Assembly: GCF_000419445.1 (NCBI RefSeq)
Contig: NZ_AULK01000001.1
Span: 744,001 to 808,000 of the forward strand
Length of the DNA stretch: 64,000 nucleotides
Direction of reading: 5' to 3'
Origin: Gryllotalpicola ginsengisoli DSM 22003
GTDB lineage: Bacteria > Actinomycetota > Actinomycetes > Actinomycetales > Microbacteriaceae
The notes under the pieces: model-generated
What the model saw: only the letters and a program-made list of their open reading frames with translations
Databases searched by the model: none
Told to the model about the DNA's origin: nothing
Program-made: the position numbers and the translations under genes
In this document: one piece after another, positions 6,207-49,916 of the stretch
Numbering within the stretch: the stretch's first letter is position 1
Layout: each line of letters starts with the position of its first letter

Positions 6207-7037
6207 TCAATGCCTTTCGATCGGGGGAAGGTCGATGACGCCGGTGCTCACCAGGTCGACGCGGGAGACGTCGAGCCCGAGCATCCGATGAGCCAGTCTC
6301 TGGAACGCGAGCGTGTCCTCGCCCGTCGCCTCGTAGCGGATCACGGGGTCGCCCGCCGCGCGGCGCTCGAGCCCGCTCCCGACGAGCACGCGGTAGACGT
6401 CGGCCGCCGTCTCGGCGTCGCTGGAGACGAGCGAAACGTCGTCGCCCATGACGTACGAGATCGCTCCCTTGAGGAACGGGTAGTGGGTGCAGCCGAGCAC
6501 GAGCGTGTCGATGCCGGCCCGCCCCAGCGGGGCGAGGTAATCGGATGCCACGGCCAGCAGCTCCGGCCCGCTGGTGACCCCGCGCTCGACGTAGTCGACG
6601 AACAGCGGGCACGCCGCGGTGAACAGCCGCAGGTCGGGGGCCGCGGCGAAGGCGTCCTCGTAGGCGCGGGACGCGATCGTGCCCACCGTGCCGATCACGC
6701 CGATGCGCCGGTTGCGGGTGGTCGCGACGGCGCGGCGCACGGCCGGCTGGATGACCTCGACGACCGGAACGTCGTAGCGCTCGCGCGCGTCGCGCAGCAG
6801 CGCCGAGCTCGCGGTGTTGCAGGCGATCACGAGCATCTTCACGCCCTGCTCGACCATGAAGTCGAGCACCTCGAGGCCGTATCGGCGCACCTCGGCGATG
6901 GGCTTCGGACCGTAGGGCGAGTGCAGCGTGTCGCCCACGTAGAGGATGGACTCGTTGGGCAGCTGATCGCGCACCGCGCGCGCCACCGTGAGGCCGCCGA
7001 CGCCGGAATCGAAGATGCCGATCGGCGCGTCGCTCAT
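6207..7037 (-). CDS. murI: Glutamate racemase
   Basis: Converts L- to D-glutamate for peptidoglycan. The 276-residue protein has the N-terminal phosphate/substrate loop [13 protein letters not shown]. It carries the two catalytic cysteines, Cys73 in ACNTASS and Cys183 in GCTHYPFL. The family motif [13 protein letters not shown] is also clear. It is first in the operon with rph and rdgB. Its ATG lies 6 nt after a TAGAAT hexamer, so the mRNA is probably leaderless. The promoter is back-to-back with that of the nicotinate phosphoribosyltransferase gene. Confidence 0.97.
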
Positions 7038-7043
7038 GAATCG

Positions 7044-7049
7044 ATTCTA
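7044..7049 (-). promoter_or_regulatory. -10 box (TAGAAT) of murI, leaderless
   Basis: Read on the minus strand, TAGAAT is followed by 6 nt and then the murI ATG. This is the spacing expected when transcription starts at the start codon. Confidence 0.65.
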
Positions 7050-7051
7050 TG

Positions 7052-7057
7052 TAGGTT
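7052..7057 (+). promoter_or_regulatory. -10 box (TAGGTT) of nicotinate phosphoribosyltransferase gene, leaderless
   Basis: TAGGTT is followed by 7 nt and GTG 7065. Only 27 bp separate the two divergent start codons, so the -10 boxes are almost adjacent and the -35 regions lie inside the opposite genes. Confidence 0.55.
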
Positions 7058-7064
7058 GAGAAAC

Positions 7065-8366
7065 GTGACCTCCTCGACCGCGCTGCTCACCGACCGCTAC
7101 GAGTTGACCATGTTGGACGCGGCGCTGGCCGACGGCACCGCGCAGCGGGAGTGCGTGTTCGAGGTGTTCGCGCGCCGGCTGCCGCTCGGCCGCCGCTACG
7201 GGGTGCTGGCCGGCACCGGCCGCCTGCTGGAGCTGATCGAGCGGTTCCGCTTCGGCGACGCGGAGCTCGAGTGGCTGCGCGAGGAGAAGGTGGTCTCCGA
7301 TGCCACGCTCGACTGGCTCGCCGACTACCGCTTCACCGGCACGATCACCGGCTATCGCGAAGGCGAGGTCTACTTCCCCGGCTCCCCCGTGCTGTCGGTC
7401 GAGGCGCCCTTCGGCGAGGGCGTGCTGCTCGAGACGCTCGTGCTCTCGGTGCTGAACTTCGACTCGGCCGTCGCGACGGCCGCGAGCCGCATGGTGCACG
7501 CCGCGCTCGGGAGGCCGATCGCCGAGATGGGCTCTCGGCGCGCCAACGAGGACGCGGCCGTCGCGGCCACGCGGGCGGCCTACATCGCGGGCTTCGAGGC
7601 CTCGTCGAACCTCGAGGCGGGGCGCCGGTGGGGCCTCCCGACGATGGGAACGGCGGCCCACGCCTTCACGCTGCTGCACGAGAGCGAAGAGGAGGCGTTC
7701 CGCTCCCAAGTGGCCGCCATGGGCACCGGCACCACGCTGCTCGTGGACACCTTCGACGTCGAGAAGGGCATCGAGACCGCCATCGCGGTGGCGGGAACCG
7801 GGCTCGGCGGCATCCGTCTCGACTCGGGCGATCTGCCCCGGCTGGTCGCCAAGGCCCGCGCCCAGCTCGACCGGCTCGGCGCGACAGACACGAAGATCAC
7901 CGTCACCAACGACCTCGACGAGTTCACCATCGCGGCCCTGTCGGCGAGCCCCGTCGACGCATTCGGGGTCGGAACCTCGGTCGTCACCGGCTCGGGCGCG
8001 CCGGCGGCCGGCATGGTGTACAAGCTCGTGGCGCACAAGGACGACGCGGGCGAGTGGGTCTCGGTCGCGAAGAAGTCGGACGGCAAGGCGACCGTCGGCG
8101 GCCGCAAGGCCCCCATCCGCCACCTCGACGCGGCCGGAATCGCAACGGCGGAGGTGGTGCACGTGCTCACCCAGCGCCCGCCGCGCGAGGAGGGGCGCGA
8201 ACTGCTCGTCACGCTCATGCAGGACGGCGAAGCGGATGCCTCGTACCTCGGCCACTCCGGCGTGGCCGCCGCGCGGGCCCACCGTGCGAAGGCCATCGAG
8301 GAGCTGCCCGAGGAGGCGTTCAAGCTGGGCGCCGACGAGCCGGTCCTGCCGACGATCTACGTCTGA
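7065..8366 (+). CDS. pncB: Nicotinate phosphoribosyltransferase
   Basis: Makes nicotinate mononucleotide from nicotinate and PRPP (Preiss-Handler NAD salvage). It has 433 residues from GTG 7065. It opens with the family motif [18 protein letters not shown]; further on come [13 protein letters not shown], the region around [12 protein letters not shown] holding the phosphorylated-His motif of this enzyme class, and [12 protein letters not shown] for PRPP binding. The C-terminal part contains the cysteine-poor, actinobacterial form of the fold. The start is set by a leaderless -10 box 7 nt upstream; there is no Shine-Dalgarno. It is divergent from murI. Confidence 0.94.
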
Positions 8367-8389
8367 CGACAGCAGTCCCGAAGCCGGCC

Positions 8390-8665
8390 CTACTCCAAGG
8401 CCAGCGACTCGTAGATCTCCTTGCACGTCGGGCAGACCGGGAACTTCTCCGGGTCTCGGCCCGGCGTCCAGACCTTGCCGCACAGCGCCTTGACCGGCTT
8501 GCCGGTCACCGCCGACTCGAGGATCGCCTCTTTGCGCACGTAGTGCGCGAAGCGGTCGTGGTCGCCGTCTTCGATCTGCTCGGAGTTCAGCAGCTCCTCG
8601 AGCTCGCGGTCGAGTGTCGCGGTGCCGCCGCCCTCGGCGGGCCCGCCCGGTTCGGAGATGCTCAT
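8390..8665 (-). CDS. DUF3039 family small protein
   Basis: Conserved actinobacterial protein of unknown function, 91 residues. An acidic N-terminal half with ELEELLNSEQ leads into a domain that contains HYVRKEAILES and KALCGKVWTP. A terminal CPTCKEIYE supplies, with the upstream Cys and a His, a likely zinc site. TAAACT followed by 6 nt sits directly before the ATG, so the transcript is probably leaderless. It is convergent with pncB and divergent from nothing nearby. The family is usually a single-copy housekeeping gene in this order; no role should be assumed. Confidence 0.85.
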   Translation of the reverse strand: MSISEPGGPAEGGGTATLDRELEELLNSEQIEDGDHDRFAHYVRKEAILESAVTGKPVKALCGKVWTPGRDPEKFPVCPTCKEIYESLALE

Positions 8666-8671
8666 GCCGCC

Positions 8672-8677
8672 AGTTTA
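8672..8677 (-). promoter_or_regulatory. -10 box (TAAACT) of the DUF3039 gene
   Basis: On the minus strand TAAACT is followed by 6 nt and the ATG, the leaderless arrangement seen repeatedly in this window. Confidence 0.6.
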
Positions 8678-8685
8678 CGAGCGGG

Positions 8686-10311
8686 TCACGCGGCGCGCAC
8701 GGCCGCGTCGAGGATCTGCGGGCCACGTCGATTGAAGATCGCCGCGCCTGCGAAGACGCCGCCGGCGAGCGCCAGCACGCCGACCGCGAGGCCGGCGGCG
8801 AGCGACAGCCCGAGCCACGACGGGTCCTGGAACACGCCCAGCACCGCGAACACGATCGCCGGAGCCGACAGCATCAGGATCACGACCAGGCTGAACGACT
8901 GCACGAAGGCCGCTGCGGCGCCCACGCTCTGCGGCTGCTGGAAGGGGCTGTCGCCGGGCTTCGGGACCGGGTACGGCACGAGCGCCGAGGTGATGCTCGA
9001 CAGCCCGAGCCCGGCCAGCAGCTCGGCGGCGCACACCCCGATCAGGGCCGGCAGCACGCGCCAGTCGCCGTAGTAGGCAGCCGACACGATCGAGCCGACC
9101 ACGACGACGGGCACGCCGATCAGCAGCACGGGGAACAGCCGGCCGACCCGGTCGGCGAGGCCCGCCGTTCCCGACACGACGTGCAGCCAGATCGCCGTGC
9201 CGTCGTACGCCACGTCGTTGTGCGCGCTCCAGCCGAGGAACACCATCATGATCGGCAGCGGCAACAGCGCGAGGTACGGCGTCGGAACCGCGTGCACGAC
9301 CGCGAGGGCCCCGAGGATCAGCACCGGGATGATGGGGATCATCACGAGCGACGCCCAGTACCGCGGGTCGCGCATCCAGTAGCTCAGGCTGCGTGCCGCG
9401 ACCGCCCCCCAGGGCCTGGCGGGCAGCACGCCGAACCAGCCGAGTCCCGGGTACACCTTCACCTCGGCGGAGCGGCCCGGGGTCACCATGATGTGGGCGA
9501 CGAGCGCCCGCCAGGCGAGCCACAGCGCGGCCGGGGTGGCGAGGGCGATGAGCAGCTCCACGGCCGCCGCTCCCCCGTGCCCCGCCGCGGTGTCGGCAGG
9601 CACCGCCCACGCCGCGCCCATGGGCGACCAGCGCAGGATGTCCGCGAGCACGCCGACGGCCGAGAGCCCGTCGCGGCTCCAGTCGACGTTCACGAGGGAG
9701 AGCACGAGCGGAGAGATCAGCACCACGAGCAGCACGCCGATCACGCCGGTGAGATCCCGCGCGCGGCGCGTGTCGAGCACGAACCCGGCGACCGCCGTGG
9801 CGACGCGGGCGGCGAGCACGCAGGTCGCGAACCCGAGTGCGGCGCAGATCAGCGCGAGCACCGCGAGCCAGAACCCGCGCGACCAGGTGATGACCGTGGC
9901 GAGCGAGCACACGGCGGTCACGGCCGCCGGCACCGAGACGACGGATGCCGCGGCGAGTCCCGCCGCGAGGCGATCCGTCGGTATCCCGAACGGCGCGAAG
10001 CGGCGCGGGTCGAGGGTGTCGTCGACGCCGAAGACGAGCGGCAGCAGCAGGAAGCCGGTCGTGACCGCAGTGCCGGCGACGATGATCACGTTGCGCACCG
10101 GGTCGGCGTCGAACAGGCGCGCCGCGATCAGCCCCGCCACCAGCAGCACCGTCGCGAACGCGCCGTACAGGCAGGCGATGACGAGCCCCACCACCTGCCA
10201 GGGGCTGCGCCGGAACGCGCCGCCGAGCAGCGCGAGCTTGAGCCGCATCAGCAGCGGCGCGTCCTGCAGCAGTTCGCGGGCCCCCCGGGCGGACGGGCGG
10301 GGAAGCGTCAC
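8686..10311 (-). CDS. ABC-2 type exporter permease
   Basis: Membrane subunit of the ABC exporter whose ATPase is encoded directly upstream; GTG 10311 overlaps the ATPase stop (GTGA). The 541-residue protein has about ten to twelve hydrophobic segments, e.g. VVGLVIACLYGAFATVLLV, FLLLPLVFGVD, VIGVLLVVLISPLVLSLV and a last one near the C-terminus. Two halves separated by a loop containing ARSLSYWMRDPRYWASL suggest a fused pair of six-helix units. The substrate is not evident. In relatives such pairs are annotated only as ABC transporter permeases; drug, lipid or polysaccharide export are all possible. Confidence 0.85.
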   Translation of the reverse strand: MTLPRPSARGARELLQDAPLLMRLKLALLGGAFRRSPWQVVGLVIACLYGAFATVLLVAGLIAARLFDADPVRNVIIVAGTAVTTGFLLLPLVFGVDDTLDPRRFAPFGIPTDRLAAGLAAASVVSVPAAVTAVCSLATVITWSRGFWLAVLALICAALGFATCVLAARVATAVAGFVLDTRRARDLTGVIGVLLVVLISPLVLSLVNVDWSRDGLSAVGVLADILRWSPMGAAWAVPADTAAGHGGAAAVELLIALATPAALWLAWRALVAHIMVTPGRSAEVKVYPGLGWFGVLPARPWGAVAARSLSYWMRDPRYWASLVMIPIIPVLILGALAVVHAVPTPYLALLPLPIMMVFLGWSAHNDVAYDGTAIWLHVVSGTAGLADRVGRLFPVLLIGVPVVVVGSIVSAAYYGDWRVLPALIGVCAAELLAGLGLSSITSALVPYPVPKPGDSPFQQPQSVGAAAAFVQSFSLVVILMLSAPAIVFAVLGVFQDPSWLGLSLAAGLAVGVLALAGGVFAGAAIFNRRGPQILDAAVRAA

Positions 10312-12356: not shown

Positions 12357-12401
12357 ACCACCCCGTCGGTCGACTGGCGCCGCAGACCGCCGTCGGTCGA
12401 C

Positions 12402-12418
12402 TCACGTCGCAGACGTGA
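12402..12418. terminator. Hairpin between convergent genes
   Basis: TCACGTC-GCA-GACGTGA forms a perfect 7-bp stem with a 3-nt loop between the nucleotidyltransferase gene and the phosphonate ATPase gene. There is no T tract. Just before it the word CCGTCGGTCGACT occurs twice (from 12363 and 12390), a degenerate relative of the GGTCGAGTAG-type repeats seen near 62.9 kb. Confidence 0.45.
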
Positions 12419-12438
12419 ATGGAGACCTACGGCGCCGA

Positions 12439-28251: not shown

Positions 28252-28272
28252 GTCGCGTGCGCGGGTCTCCAT

Positions 28273-28287
28273 TCGCCCTTCGGGCGA
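28273..28287 (+). terminator. Hairpin after the methyltransferase gene
   Basis: TCGCCC-TTC-GGGCGA is a perfect 6-bp stem 22 nt after the mod stop and ahead of a convergent Xre gene. There is no U tract. GAGTCGACCAGCG and GAGTCGACCGGCG directly downstream are degenerate copies of the GGTCGAGTAG-type repeat. Confidence 0.45.
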
Positions 28288-28346
28288 GTCGACCAGCGAG
28301 GGGACGCGTGCGAGTCGACCGGCGGGGGCGCGGCTGAGGGGCGCGG

Positions 28347-29519: not shown

Positions 29520-29541
29520 CGAGGCTTCGAGGCTTCGAGAC

Positions 29542-29556
29542 GGCGCCTTTGGCGCC
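29542..29556. terminator. Hairpin and degenerate intergenic repeat
   Basis: GGCGCC-TTT-GGCGCC lies between convergent genes. The surroundings (GGCTTCGAG occurring twice from 29523, CTCCTCAGCC at 29555) show that it is a copy of the palindromic repeat family better preserved at 48.8 kb. Confidence 0.55.
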
Positions 29557-29559
29557 TCC

Positions 29560-30813
29560 TCAGCCGGCGGAAGGGGTGGACGACGACGCAGCGGTGCGCG
29601 CGTTCCACTCCTCCCACTCATCCATGAGCCGCGCGATCGCCTGGTGGAAGCGGCGGGTCGTCGCCCCCGGCGTCGTGTCGCCGAAGTAGTGCTCCACCCA
29701 CTTGGCGAGGCGCACCGCCGCCTGCTCGTCGTGGCTCAACTCCTCGAGGCGCCGCGTGATCGCGGGGGCATCGGATGCCTCCAGCCACTCCGCATCCGAC
29801 AGATACCCGCCCTCGTCGAGCTCCGCGTCGGGGTGGACCGGCCGGGTGACGAGCAGCGGCTTGCCGGCGGCCAGCCGGTCGTAGACCATCGCCGAGACGT
29901 CGACGATCGCCACGTCGGCGGCGGAGAGCTGCCAGCCGAGCTCCGCCCCGTGGTCGTACACGTGGTGTGCGGAAGGATCCGCGCGGTTCGCGGCGGCGAT
30001 CGCGTGGATGATGCGCCGGTTCGCCTCTCCGTAGGCGTGGTCGACCACTCCGCTGCGGGGGTGCGGCCGGTAGATCAGCCGGTAGCGCCGGTCGGCAAGC
30101 AGCGCCTCGGCCAGCGCGACGCCGTGGGTGACCACCGAGCCGTAGGCGGCCGCGGGCCGGTCGCCCTCCCAGGTGGGCGCGTACAGCACGACAGTGCGCT
30201 CATCGGGGGTGTACGGCAGCGTTCCCGAGTAGTGGTCGGCCTGCGGGCGTCCGATCTTGATGGCGCGCTTGTCGAGGTCGTAGTCCCACAGCACGCGCGA
30301 CAGGCGGTTCAGGGCGGCGTCGCCGGCGACCAGAGCGTAGTCGTACGCCTTGAACTGGTTCGTCGTCATGTACATCTTGTCGCTCTCGCCGTGGTTGATG
30401 AACACGTGCCAGCGGCGCCCGTAGCGCATCATCTGGAAGTTGCGCGCGTTCTGGTTGACGTAGAGGACGATGCGGATGTCCTGCCGGTCGAGGAACTCCT
30501 CGACGTCGAGGATCGTCTTCACGTACGCTACGGGCACCGGGCTCTCCCTGAGCAGCGCCGCGGCCCCGGTGGCCGCGCGCGACATGATGACCACCGGCCA
30601 CAGCTTCGCGAGCTCGGCGAGGGGCTTGTACCACTGCCGCAGCTGGTACAGGTTGACCTCGCCGTCGGCGAAGTAGACGGCGATGCGGAAGCGCCCGGCA
30701 GGGAGCGGTTCCGCCCGGCCCAGAATCTCCCGCAGCTCCGCGCGTGCTTTGCGCTGCTGCAATGCATTGCGCACCAAACGCGCCGCTGCCGTCACATCGC
30801 GTGCGATACCCAT
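29560..30813 (-). CDS. CDP-glycerol:poly(glycerophosphate) glycerophosphotransferase family protein
   Basis: Single-domain TagB/TagF-type enzyme, 417 residues. Recognisable blocks are VFINHGESDKMYMTTNQFKAYD (catalytic-His region, about 138), VVLYAPTWEGDRP (about 215), YRLIYRPHPRSGVVD (second His) and ADVAIVDVSAMVYDRLAAGKP (counterpart of the TDYSS motif). It should transfer glycerol phosphate or a related alditol phosphate onto a wall-polymer primer. It is divergent from the two-domain paralogue (68 bp apart). No signal peptide; it acts on the cytoplasmic membrane face before export. C-terminal EEWNARTAASSSTPSAG is a disordered tail. Confidence 0.85.
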   Translation of the reverse strand: MGIARDVTAAARLVRNALQQRKARAELREILGRAEPLPAGRFRIAVYFADGEVNLYQLRQWYKPLAELAKLWPVVIMSRAATGAAALLRESPVPVAYVKTILDVEEFLDRQDIRIVLYVNQNARNFQMMRYGRRWHVFINHGESDKMYMTTNQFKAYDYALVAGDAALNRLSRVLWDYDLDKRAIKIGRPQADHYSGTLPYTPDERTVVLYAPTWEGDRPAAAYGSVVTHGVALAEALLADRRYRLIYRPHPRSGVVDHAYGEANRRIIHAIAAANRADPSAHHVYDHGAELGWQLSAADVAIVDVSAMVYDRLAAGKPLLVTRPVHPDAELDEGGYLSDAEWLEASDAPAITRRLEELSHDEQAAVRLAKWVEHYFGDTTPGATTRRFHQAIARLMDEWEEWNARTAASSSTPSAG

Positions 30814-42632: not shown

Positions 42633-42756
42633 GGCTTCGAGACGCGCCTGCGGCGCTCCTCAGCCACCGGTCCCTGAGGAGGCCCGCAGGGCGGTCTCGA
42701 AGGGCGGTCCCTGAGGAGGGGCTTCGAGACGCGCCTGCGGCGCTCCTCAGCCACCG
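42633..42756. repeat. Cluster of palindromic intergenic repeats
   Basis: Three or four copies of the GGCTTCGAGAC...CTCCTCAGCC element: forward at 42633-42668, reverse at 42670-42702, a truncated reverse piece at 42707-42720 and forward again at 42720-42756. Each can form a hairpin around GCGCCTGCGGCGC-type centres. Lies between convergent genes and may terminate both. Confidence 0.8.
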
Positions 42757-46934: not shown

Positions 46935-48281
46935 ATGGCGGACGAGGACGACAAGAGCCCCGAGGACGCCCTGCGCGACATGCTGCGGGACATGCTCTCG
47001 GGCACGGGCGGGATCGACCCGCAGAAGCTCGCCGGGGCCGCGGGGCTGCCGAGCGACCCGGCCGCACTGCAGCAGCTGATCATGCAACTGCAGGGAGCCC
47101 TGCGCGGCAACGCCGACGGCTCCATCAACTGGGATCTCGCCCTGCAGCAGGGCCGCCAGCTCGCGATGCAGACCTCGGTGGAGACCGCGCCAGGCCGGCT
47201 GTCGGCGCTCGGCCAGGCGTTCCACGTCGCCGATCTCTGGCTGGACGAGGCCACCGGCATGGGTCCGCTGCCCTCCGAGCCCGCACTGCTGACGCGCGCC
47301 GAGTGGGTGAAGCGCACCATGCCGCTGTGGACGCAGCTGGCCGAGCCGGTCGCCAACTCGATCGCCGACGCGCTCACCGGGGTGCTGCGCGACCAGGCGC
47401 CGGAAGAGCTGCAGGGCATGGTGCAGAACGCCGGCCAGATGGTGCGCGCGGTGGGCGGCACGCTGTTCGCCATGCAACTGGGGCAGGTCGTGGGCCAGCT
47501 GTCGCAGGAGGTCGTCTCGGGCGGTGACATCGGCATCCCGCTGCTGGAGGACGGGCAGGCGGCGCTGCTGCCGCAGAACGTCGCCGCCTTCGGCGAGGGG
47601 CTCGACATCCCGGACGACCAGGTGGCGCTGTACCTCGCCGTGCGCGAACTCGCGCATGCGCGCCTGTTCCGGCACGCGAAGTGGCTGCGGCTGCAGGTCA
47701 TCACGGCCATCACGGAGTTCGCCCGCGGCATCCGTATCGACACCGATCGCCTGGAAGAGGTGGCCGCGTCCTTCGACCCGTCCAACCCCGACGAGCTGCG
47801 CGACGCGCTCGCCTCGGGCGCGCTGATCCCGCCGAAGACCGAGGCGCAGCAGGCCGCGCTCGCCCGGCTCGAGAACCAGCTGGCGCTGATCGAGGGCTGG
47901 GTCGACGTGGTGACCGCCCAGGCCACGGGCCGGCTGCCGAAGGCCGACAGCATCGCCGAGATGGTGCGCCGCCGCCGGGCCGCCGGCGGACCGGCCGAGA
48001 GCGCGTTCGCGACGCTCGTCGGGCTCGAGCTGCGGCCGCGCAGGCTGCGCGAGGCGGCCGCCATGTGGCAAGCCGTATCGGATGCGGTGGGGCCGGCCGC
48101 CCGCGACGAGCTGTGGTCGCACCCCGACATCCAGCCGACCGGCGAGGACATCGACGACCCGCAGCGGCTGATCGCGCGGCTCAAGGGCGACGCCCCCGCC
48201 GATCCCGAGATGGACGCGATCGACCAGGCGATCGAGGACCTCCTGGCCGACGACACCACCGACCGCCCCCACGAGGAGTAG
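46935..48281 (+). CDS. Zinc-dependent metalloprotease-like protein (DUF2342/TIGR03624 family)
   Basis: Actinobacterial protein related to a family found with F420 genes, and positional counterpart of Rv3195. 448 residues, soluble. DIGIPLLEDGQAALLPQNV and LYLAVRELAHARLFRHAKWLR are the diagnostic blocks; the second gives a metal-binding-like E-L-A-H-A-R in place of a perfect HExxH, the usual state in this family. N-terminal Asp/Leu-rich helices (SPEDALRDMLRDMLSG) and an acidic C-terminus flank it. It is divergent from the PDZ/Lon gene (76 bp gap). Proteolytic activity is unproven. Confidence 0.85.
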   Translation: MADEDDKSPEDALRDMLRDMLSGTGGIDPQKLAGAAGLPSDPAALQQLIMQLQGALRGNADGSINWDLALQQGRQLAMQTSVETAPGRLSALGQAFHVADLWLDEATGMGPLPSEPALLTRAEWVKRTMPLWTQLAEPVANSIADALTGVLRDQAPEELQGMVQNAGQMVRAVGGTLFAMQLGQVVGQLSQEVVSGGDIGIPLLEDGQAALLPQNVAAFGEGLDIPDDQVALYLAVRELAHARLFRHAKWLRLQVITAITEFARGIRIDTDRLEEVAASFDPSNPDELRDALASGALIPPKTEAQQAALARLENQLALIEGWVDVVTAQATGRLPKADSIAEMVRRRRAAGGPAESAFATLVGLELRPRRLREAAAMWQAVSDAVGPAARDELWSHPDIQPTGEDIDDPQRLIARLKGDAPADPEMDAIDQAIEDLLADDTTDRPHEE

Positions 48282-48300
48282 CGCGCCCGCCGCTGCAGGT

Positions 48301-48448
48301 GGCCGAGGAGACCCCAGGGCCCTCGACTCCCGCTGGCTGAGGAGGCCCGAAGCGCCCTCGACTCCCGCTGGCTGAGGAGGCCCGAAGGGCCGTCTCGAAG
48401 CCACGCGCCCCCGCCGGCTGAGGAGGCCCGAAGGGCCGTCTCGAAGCC
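48301..48448 (-). repeat. Four-copy palindromic repeat array upstream of the GIY-YIG gene
   Basis: Units beginning GGCTGAGGAGGCCC and, in the last two, ending GTCTCGAAGCC start at 48301 and 48335 (partial, both ending CTCGACTCCCGCT), 48370 and 48416 (full 33 bp). Orientation is opposite to the array after the GIY-YIG gene. Stem GGCCC-GAA-GGGCC. The 221 bp between the stop at 48281 and the next start hold nothing else that I can see. Confidence 0.9.
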
Positions 48449-48502
48449 CGCCCTGTGGAGACCGCGCTTCGCCCCGTCCCTGCCTCCGTCACACTCGTCG
48501 CC

Positions 48503-48802
48503 ATGAGCGGCTACACCTATATGCTCCGCTGCGCGGACGGAAGCTACTACGTCGGCAGTACGAGCAACCTCGACGCGCGAATGGACCAGCACGGAGCAGG
48601 CAAGGGGTCCGCCTACACAAGCAAGCGGATGCCCGTCGAGTTGGTGTTCGTCGCCGAATTCGACAGCGTGGCCGATGCGTGGGCCATGGAGCGGCGTATT
48701 CACGGCTGGAGCCGGGCGAAGAAGGAAGCGCTGATCAGAGGCGACTGGAATCAGTTGCAGAAGCTGGCCAGACGGGGCGGGGGTCAGGCGACGCCGGACT
48801 GA
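48503..48802 (+). CDS. Small GIY-YIG nuclease-domain protein
   Basis: 99 residues, essentially a lone GIY-YIG domain of the UPF0213/YhbQ-like type. YTYMLRCADGSYYVGST gives the two strands with the Tyr and Tyr-Val-Gly core; Arg27 in NLDARMDQH, HGAGKGSAYTSKRMP and the metal-site Glu in AMERRIHGWSR follow. The catalytic residues seem intact. The start ATG follows CACACT by 7 nt. The gene stands between two arrays of the same palindromic repeat in opposite orientation, an arrangement that suggests the nuclease and repeat are functionally linked. Cellular substrate unknown. Confidence 0.88.
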   Translation: MSGYTYMLRCADGSYYVGSTSNLDARMDQHGAGKGSAYTSKRMPVELVFVAEFDSVADAWAMERRIHGWSRAKKEALIRGDWNQLQKLARRGGGQATPD

Positions 48803-48813
48803 CGCGTCGCCCG

Positions 48814-48952
48814 GGCTTCGAGACGGCCCTGCGGGCCTCCTCAGCCAACGAGAAGGGGGATGCGCGGGCTTCGAGACGGCCCTGCGGGCCTCCTCAGCCG
48901 GCGGGACAGGGGGTGCGGCGGCTTCGAGACGGCCCTGCGGGCCTCCTCAGCC
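48814..48952 (+). repeat. Three-copy palindromic repeat array downstream of the GIY-YIG gene
   Basis: Three identical 33-bp copies at 48814-48846, 48867-48899 and 48920-48952, each beginning GGCTTCGAGACGGCCC and ending CTCCTCAGCC, with a stem GGCCC-TGC-GGGCC. The spacers (20 bp each) are unrelated or only partly similar. This fills most of the 223 bp before the next start. Confidence 0.95.
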
Positions 48953-49025
48953 GGCGGGACGCGCGCGCGAACCGGCTGTGGAGAGTCGGCGGCGGGGTGG
49001 GGCGGAGCGGGGCACACTGGCGGGC

Positions 49026-49916
49026 ATGATCCTGCGACTCGACCCGGCGGTGCCGGTGGTGTGGCGCTCCCCGACGACGGTGCAGCTCGGGGCGGAGCAT
49101 CCGATCGCCGTGATCGACGACCCCACGCCCGCGACCGAGCGGATGCTCGCCGCGCTCGCCGTCGGAACACCGCAGTCCGCCCTCGCCGTGCTCGCCTCGA
49201 ACGCCGGCGCCGACCCGGGCGCGGCAGAGCGCCTCGTGGACGCGGTGCGGCCGGCGCTGCTCGACCTGAGCACTCCCCCGTCGCCGCCGGCGCGCGGCCC
49301 CGAGTCGCTGCGGCTCGCGGTCGACGGCAACGGGCCCACCTCCCGCGCGATCGCCGCCGTGCTGCGCGGCCTCGGCGCCGCGCTCGCCTCCGAGCCGCCG
49401 TCGCCGGGCGGAGCGCCGATCGACGCGGTCGTGCTGGTCGGCTCCTACGCCGTCGCCCCCGCCCGGTACGGGCGCTGGCAGCTGCGCGAGGTGCCGCAGC
49501 TGGCGGTCGTGTTCGGCGAGCGCGAGGCCCGCATCGGCCCGTTCGTGCGCCCCGGCGAGGGCGCCTGCCTGCGCTGCCTCGACCTCGCCCGCGCCGACGA
49601 CGATCCGGCCTGGCCGCTGATCGGCACGCAGCTGGTCACGAAGCGGGCGGCGAGCGAGCGGCCGCCGTTCGCGGCATCCGTCGCCCTGCGCGCCGTCGAC
49701 GCGCTGCTGGCGCACCTGCTCGCCGGCAGCAGCGAGCTGGTCGGGGCGAGCAGGGTGCTCGACCGGTGCACCGGCGAGGTCAGCGTGCGGCGGCACCCGC
49801 CCCACGATCGATGCGGGTGCCGAGCTCTGCCAGGAACCGGGACGGCTGGCGTGGCGCGGCTCGAGGGCCGCCGGTCTCGGCCCAGCTCAGGTGCAGCCGC
49901 CGCCGGGCGCGGGTGA
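49026..49916 (+). CDS. Cyclodehydratase-like/ThiF-related protein (Rv3196-like)
   Basis: 296 residues related to the domain called bacteriocin-biosynthesis cyclodehydratase, but with no peptide-modification genes nearby; positional counterpart of Rv3196. Begins RLDPAVPVVWRSPTTVQLG, the family's usual opening. A Rossmann-like middle lacks an obvious ATP loop. Cysteine pairs CLRC (in PGEGACLRCLD) and CGC (in HDRCGCR) probably bind zinc. CACACT plus 7 nt precedes the ATG. The last 137 nt overlap the 3' end of uvrD2 on the opposite strand, and the residues after HDRCGCR look like low-complexity by-product of that overlap. Confidence 0.75.
   Translation: MILRLDPAVPVVWRSPTTVQLGAEHPIAVIDDPTPATERMLAALAVGTPQSALAVLASNAGADPGAAERLVDAVRPALLDLSTPPSPPARGPESLRLAVDGNGPTSRAIAAVLRGLGAALASEPPSPGGAPIDAVVLVGSYAVAPARYGRWQLREVPQLAVVFGEREARIGPFVRPGEGACLRCLDLARADDDPAWPLIGTQLVTKRAASERPPFAASVALRAVDALLAHLLAGSSELVGASRVLDRCTGEVSVRRHPPHDRCGCRALPGTGTAGVARLEGRRSRPSSGAAAAGRG

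Follow-up and report, generated by a model that had tools for sequence, protein, structure and literature searches.

A GIY-YIG nuclease gene between facing hairpin arrays and a putative residue-to-base code linking protein and repeat

Main finding

In the genome of Gryllotalpicola ginsengisoli DSM 22003 a gene for a small GIY-YIG protein lies between two arrays of hairpin repeats that face each other across the gene, and among related loci in many bacteria the sequence of such repeats changes together with single residues of the neighbouring protein. Judged from sequence comparison, the protein would be a site-specific nuclease recognising the hairpin repeat that flanks its own gene and is dispersed over the genome, with gene and repeats forming a cassette, a reading to which we assign a probability of about 0.77. 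The DNA analysed, referred to as the window, is a stretch of 64,000 nucleotides taken from contig C1 (bases 744001-808000) of a 23-contig assembly totalling 2.94 Mb; its features are listed in Table 1. What makes the hairpin repeats of families lacking a RAYT (Y1 tyrosine transposase) is an open question, raised for example by the CGTC REPs (PMC3733652), and the loci described here tie a GIY-YIG nuclease to such RAYT-less repeats across phyla.

The gene and its hairpin arrays

The first-pass annotation, made from the letters of the window, had described a 99-residue GIY-YIG gene between oppositely oriented repeat arrays, and this layout was borne out by the strands of the copies, which run from minus-strand hairpins through the gene to plus-strand hairpins, and by a match of the protein to PF01541 in a profile search (E 1.1e-16; 61 bits vs a cut-off of 22.6). 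The three copies behind the gene (GGCTTCGAGACGGCCCTGCGGGCCTCCTCAGCC) are identical, as had been stated, over a length of 33 nt and follow each other at a spacing of 53 bp. The array in front of the gene consists of two intact and two decayed copies, and the original count of four holds only if the decayed ones are included. Intact upstream and downstream copies are a single loop base apart (TTCG vs TGCG). Allowing at most three mismatches, the 31-nt core of this repeat, hereafter family A, occurs six times in the window and was absent from 100 shuffles. An Rfam search gave no match, and an Rfam RNA element was thus set aside as an ordinary explanation.

The protein carries the domain and the catalytic Tyr, Arg and Glu that define the GIY-YIG superfamily. 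Its catalytic-type residues are Y6, Y16, G18, R26, H30 and E63, and Y6, Y16, G18, R26 and E63 were invariant in an alignment of 28 homologs. The protein has a confident AlphaFold model (mean pLDDT 90), in which the last predicted helix ends with residue 91, and the folds closest to this model are UPF0213 structures and Slx1. K74 and R91 are the residues of this protein that track repeat sequence (see below).

Table 1. Features of the window discussed in the text (positions are those of the window)
Feature	Position	Strand	Remarks
Inserted cassette region between the two neighbour genes	48282..49028	.	
Decayed repeat copy 1	48300..48329 (about)	-	sequence inspection
Decayed repeat copy 2	48335..48364 (about)	-	77% to reference copy
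Intact family A hairpin GGCTTCGAGACGGCCCTTCGGGCCTCCTCAGCC	48370..48402	-	
Intact family A hairpin	48416..48448	-	
GIY-YIG nuclease gene	48503..48802	+	99 aa; ATG 48503, stop 48800-48802
Family A hairpin, TGCG loop	48814..48846	+	single-stranded DNA fold -8.2 kcal/mol
Family A hairpin	48867..48899	+	identical to 48814..48846 copy
Family A hairpin	48920..48952	+	identical to 48814..48846 copy
Dispersed family A copy (TCGAGACGGCGCCTTTGGCGCCTCCTCAG)	29535..29563	+	C1:773535
Dispersed family A cluster	42637..42750		plus copies at 42637 and 42724; minus-strand variant 42672-42702
Family B copy (TCTCCATTC...GAGTCGACC)	12395-12425	-	partner: paralog on contig C8
Family B copy (TCTCCATTC...GAGTCGACC)	28266-28294	+	partner: paralog on contig C8

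Two repeat families and two genes in one genome

Family A is not confined to the gene locus. The related copies that had been noticed near 29.5 and 42.7 kb are real (Table 1), and the pattern TCGAGACG-N8..20-TCCTCAG was found 123 times genome-wide vs 0 times when read backwards; among about 100 copies listed, the gene locus was the only place at which a minus-strand array and then a plus-strand array were seen with room for a gene between them. Family A copies keep constant ends around a middle that differs between copies and still pairs: among 47 distinct middles 40 form a complete stem, built from 16 different arms, and the mean inner stem measures 4.7 bp vs 0.7 bp in shuffled sequences. Since the folding energy of single hairpins shows no excess over shuffles (z about -1.2), it is the covarying stem and not the energy that constitutes evidence for the fold. 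The family A core is present 25, 10 and 7 times, respectively, in three relatives (G077, G003 and G071) that have no detectable GIY-YIG gene, which indicates that family A persists, or arose, without the gene; these copies are perhaps relics left after gene loss.

The same genome (G000) encodes a second GIY-YIG paralog (L056) on contig C8 (8379-8630, within the locus 6879-10130), which shares about 60% identity with the window protein along its full length and is flanked by a different repeat, family B (TCTCCATTC...TCGACC), with 120 copies in this genome. Among the 149 relatives examined, more than two family B copies were found only in this genome and in G002 (43 copies), whose sole GIY-YIG homolog (L035) is 78% identical to the second paralog and which contains zero family A copies. 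Because family B is abundant only in genomes with a gene of this second type, the repeat family follows the type of gene and not the genome.

Empty sites in relatives

The genes on either side of the cassette (46935-48281 and 49029-49913) are direct neighbours in relatives. Both could be seen in 26 relatives, three of which belong to the same genus, and in every one of them the space between the two genes lacks a GIY-YIG gene as well as repeats and measures 151 bp (median) vs 750 bp here. Some 0.6 kb of gene and arrays was therefore gained here, perhaps with the arrays growing later, unless all other relatives lost it, which appears the less likely course. The gene is thus not a fixed feature of a locus that relatives keep without repeats, an outcome that would have spoken against the link between gene and repeats.

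Recurrence across bacteria

Homologs of the GIY-YIG gene were detected in 22 of the 149 relatives, and these together with 80 named loci from GTDB genomes were analyzed; going by record titles the named loci represent Actinomycetota, Bacteroidota, Chloroflexota, Pseudomonadota, Fibrobacterota and others, including many MAGs. Comparing 400 bp upstream with 400 bp downstream for an inverted match, with the same loci shifted by 1.7-1.9 kb as controls, we found a facing match with a score of at least 18 at 46 of 75 named loci vs 0 of 284 controls. The repeats usually follow the plan N4-TCGA...CTC-N4' with a variable stem or a short loop inside, and the outer four-base pairs include GGTT/AACC, GGTC/GACC, CCCT/AGGG, GGCT/AGCC and GATC/GATC. 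Hairpins of the TCGA..CTC type face the gene on both sides at 57 of 98 loci vs 1 of 253 controls, counts in which the controls carry the weight rather than the raw number because the motif was recognised on the same loci. At least one such hairpin in facing orientation is present at 84 of the 98 loci, and 14 homolog loci have no facing TCGA repeat. The enrichment of repeats near these genes, which had been proposed as a check on the first reading, is thus seen.

The 24 distant GIY-YIG homologs scored (within L183-L208, obtained by a phylum-wide search) have no facing TCGA..CTC hairpins except for one doubtful, chance-like case (L192), and the pairing therefore belongs to one clade and not to GIY-YIG proteins at large. 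The scope suggested at first, UPF0213-like genes in general, was thus too broad. Plasmids and phages also carry homologs, none of which reaches 60% identity.

Several loci illustrate how the repeats vary. In two Methylobacterium loci (L297, L298) the pairing is kept (TCCTTCGAGG...CACCTCAGGA) and the polarity relative to the gene is opposite. A repeat of the same TCGA...CTC plan, CCCTTCGACAAGCTCAGGG, flanks the homologs L047-L049, L051 and those of similar loci; we take this repeat to be widespread in bacterial genomes. At L099 the facing repeats have a long internal arm (GGTTTCGACCACGGGCAGCTCC...CCCGGCTCAACC), the variable stem being far longer in some lineages.

A code between residues and bases

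With residues numbered by the window protein, the base that follows TCGA can be predicted from residue 91: lysine goes with T, arginine with G and any other residue with C. In the discovery set of 84 loci with a readable repeat, Lys91 is found at 33 of 36 loci with T and at none of the remaining 48, Arg91 at 14 of 16 loci with G, and neither of the two at 28 of 32 loci with C; Lys74 is associated with 'CT' before TCGA (22/22 vs 3/62). These rules were fixed before fresh loci were fetched, and on the 44 new, non-redundant loci with repeats the three-way rule for residue 91 was correct in 39 cases. Taken separately, T and Lys91 coincide at 23/24 vs 0/20 held-out loci (p 1e-11), the sole miss being an alignment slip (tail ...LSRKRA), G and Arg91 at 7/8 vs 3/36 (p 2e-5), and CT and Lys74 at 7/8 vs 2/36 (p 7e-6).

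On the protein tree the repeat label changes about 35 times, which is about equal to shuffled labels, and ancestry therefore does not explain the residue 91 code. Among 26 path-disjoint tree pairs, T and Lys91 gave 23 agreements and 0 contradictions (p 2e-7), a test that uses the best tree with branch support disregarded, for short proteins whose tree is poorly resolved and holds three starred pairs only. For G and Arg91 the independent pairs stand at 11:0, and column 91 is by far the best in this test, with no other alignment column near it. Residue 74 has few independent changes (5:0, p 0.06) and appears, less firmly, to track the base two before TCGA. Residue 17 was considered as a specificity residue and rejected; it is associated, yet with just 3:0 independent pairs.

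The code also holds within a single genome, G039, which has three paralogs with three repeats, all of them fitting (L037 K/T, L057 S/C, L062 R/G), and the window protein (K74, R91) agrees with its own repeat GGCT-TCGA-GA. The first Methylobacterium protein mentioned above (L297) has R91 and K74 and by eye agrees with both residue rules. In records of the Bacteroidota type (L140, L148, L172, L177 and others) the protein ends in the tail AECKN, with Cys at position 91, and is paired with TCGACTxCGCTC repeats; this combination is possibly a further letter of the code. Of all observations made here, the code is the strongest evidence that protein and repeat touch, a contact that would be direct. 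The connection between repeat and gene, at first drawn from the layout of one locus, is now strongly supported by enrichment, paralog-specific repeat families, held-out covariation and empty sites.

Proposed function and alternative explanations

These comparisons strongly suggest that the flanking hairpin is the site which the enzyme reads and on which it acts. We envisage a small, structure-dependent nuclease with site specificity that would recognise the hairpin beside its own gene and across the genome by the outer stem of 4 bp, the TCGA...CTC core and the adjoining bases; one position beside TCGA would be read by residue 91, with which the C-terminal helix ends, and another probably by residue 74. 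The enzyme, whose catalytic residues are intact, would nick the folded repeat on one strand, most likely while the repeat is single-stranded, as might be the case at replication forks, in incoming DNA or in extruded hairpins. As a cassette, gene and facing repeats would have entered new intergenic sites, and the enzyme plausibly also made and maintains the genome-wide copies; the host may draw some benefit.

Alternatively, the repeats might be host elements, such as terminators or nucleoid/REP-type elements, and the protein might edit, resolve or police hairpins or marked incoming DNA, with no mobility involved. The hairpins are GC-rich and able to fold, and the Ssn protein of Neisseria with its NTS repeat reportedly modulates natural transformation, both of which would suit such a role. 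We nevertheless consider it unlikely, as the patchy distribution of the gene (22/149 relatives), the empty sites and the gene-specific repeats resemble a selfish or mobile pair, and as two orthogonal gene-repeat pairs coexist within one genome.

GIY-YIG homing endonucleases are well known, and the gene might be a passenger or homing-type nuclease that landed in pre-existing hairpins made otherwise, the repeats being its targets and not its products. A gene inserted into such a target would end up with repeat sequence at either end, and the gene-less repeats of G003, G071 and G077 fit this explanation as well. However, in many lineages the type of repeat changes closely in step with the type of protein, a match that a passing visitor would not sustain, and the 99-aa protein has neither an intron or intein context nor the larger size with a DNA-binding extension typical of homing endonucleases; its gene is intergenic, and its score against TIGR01453 (grpIintron_endo) is 16 bits, far under the cut-off of 56. 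In addition, the empty sites of relatives hold no repeat at all, so that no repeat seen today can have been the landing site of the cassette. Such a passenger origin is thus quite improbable.

Chance or composition, under which palindromic repeats would be common enough to turn up at any small gene, can be given next to no weight: hairpins of this kind do abound in the genome, but the shifted same-locus controls (0/284 and 1/253), the neighbour gene pair lacking repeats in 26 relatives, the near absence of hairpins at distant GIY-YIG genes and the covariation of protein and repeat all stand against it. Mobilisation by a RAYT with the GIY-YIG gene incidental, conceivable because RAYTs are the partners of REP elements elsewhere (PMC2817692, PMC6006769), deserves equally little credence and is refuted for this assembly, barring a RAYT in an unassembled gap, as a profile search found PF01797 nowhere in the assembly and in just 5 of 149 relatives, and the window copies read have no GTAG tetranucleotide beside the palindrome. 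The absence of a RAYT agrees with the first-pass annotation, which had proposed a different enzyme class.

The rule of one residue for one base allows a repeat to be predicted from its protein and makes the question of the repeats' maker accessible to tests with small oligonucleotides and single point mutants, and the loci yield candidate sequence-specific hairpin nucleases whose targets are readable from the flanks. A wider proposal, for which we claim clearly less than even odds, is that GIY-YIG proteins represent a second, RAYT-independent repeat-making class in many phyla, each making, spreading and keeping up its own family of REP-like hairpins as a selfish pair, with a readable and re-programmable code in residues 91 and 74; if this were true, targets could be predicted and re-programmed.

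Comparison with known systems

The nearest solved folds are those of UPF0213/YhbQ-like GIY-YIG proteins (1zg2, 1ywl), which differ in that the distant homologs in the phylum set are essentially without facing TCGA hairpins. Slx1 is alike in its fold and in a GIY-YIG domain acting on branched DNA, whereas the 99-aa protein lacks an accessory domain and an Slx4-type partner; we know of no repeats associated with Slx1.

In its arrangement the locus recalls the REPtron, a RAYT/TnpA-REP gene flanked by REP elements (PMC6006769, PMC8266576). Both consist of a single nuclease gene between hairpin repeats with further copies throughout the genome, and in both each enzyme has its own co-evolving repeat family. 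In contrast to REPtrons, the enzyme here has a GIY-YIG and not an HuH/Y1 fold, the repeats carry no GTAG tag, and the genome is without a Y1 transposase. CGTC-tagged REPs, including dRS3 of Neisseria, are palindromic and 'apparently lack a dedicated transposase' (PMC3733652). Family A is like them in the latter respect and differs in tag and core. The dRS3 repeat of Neisseria is presumably the target of Ssn, which would make both cases GIY-YIG partners.

Our literature search found no paper on GIY-YIG proteins and REP elements. Ssn proteins are site-specific single-stranded GIY-YIG nucleases, for example SsnA of Neisseria meningitidis with the NTS repeat, which reportedly cut single-stranded genome-wide repeats and modulate transformation. 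The present system shares with that family a small stand-alone GIY-YIG protein, a cognate repeat with some 100 or more copies per genome, and a target that differs between homologs, the repeat type here appearing to track residues and paralogs. Apparent differences are its actinobacterial members, the TCGA...CTC core, the arrays facing across the gene, the two orthogonal pairs in one genome, the residue-to-base rule and the empty sites. A GIY-YIG class acting on genome-wide repeats is thus probably not unprecedented, and the system is best read as closest to the Ssn family, with the layout of a REPtron.
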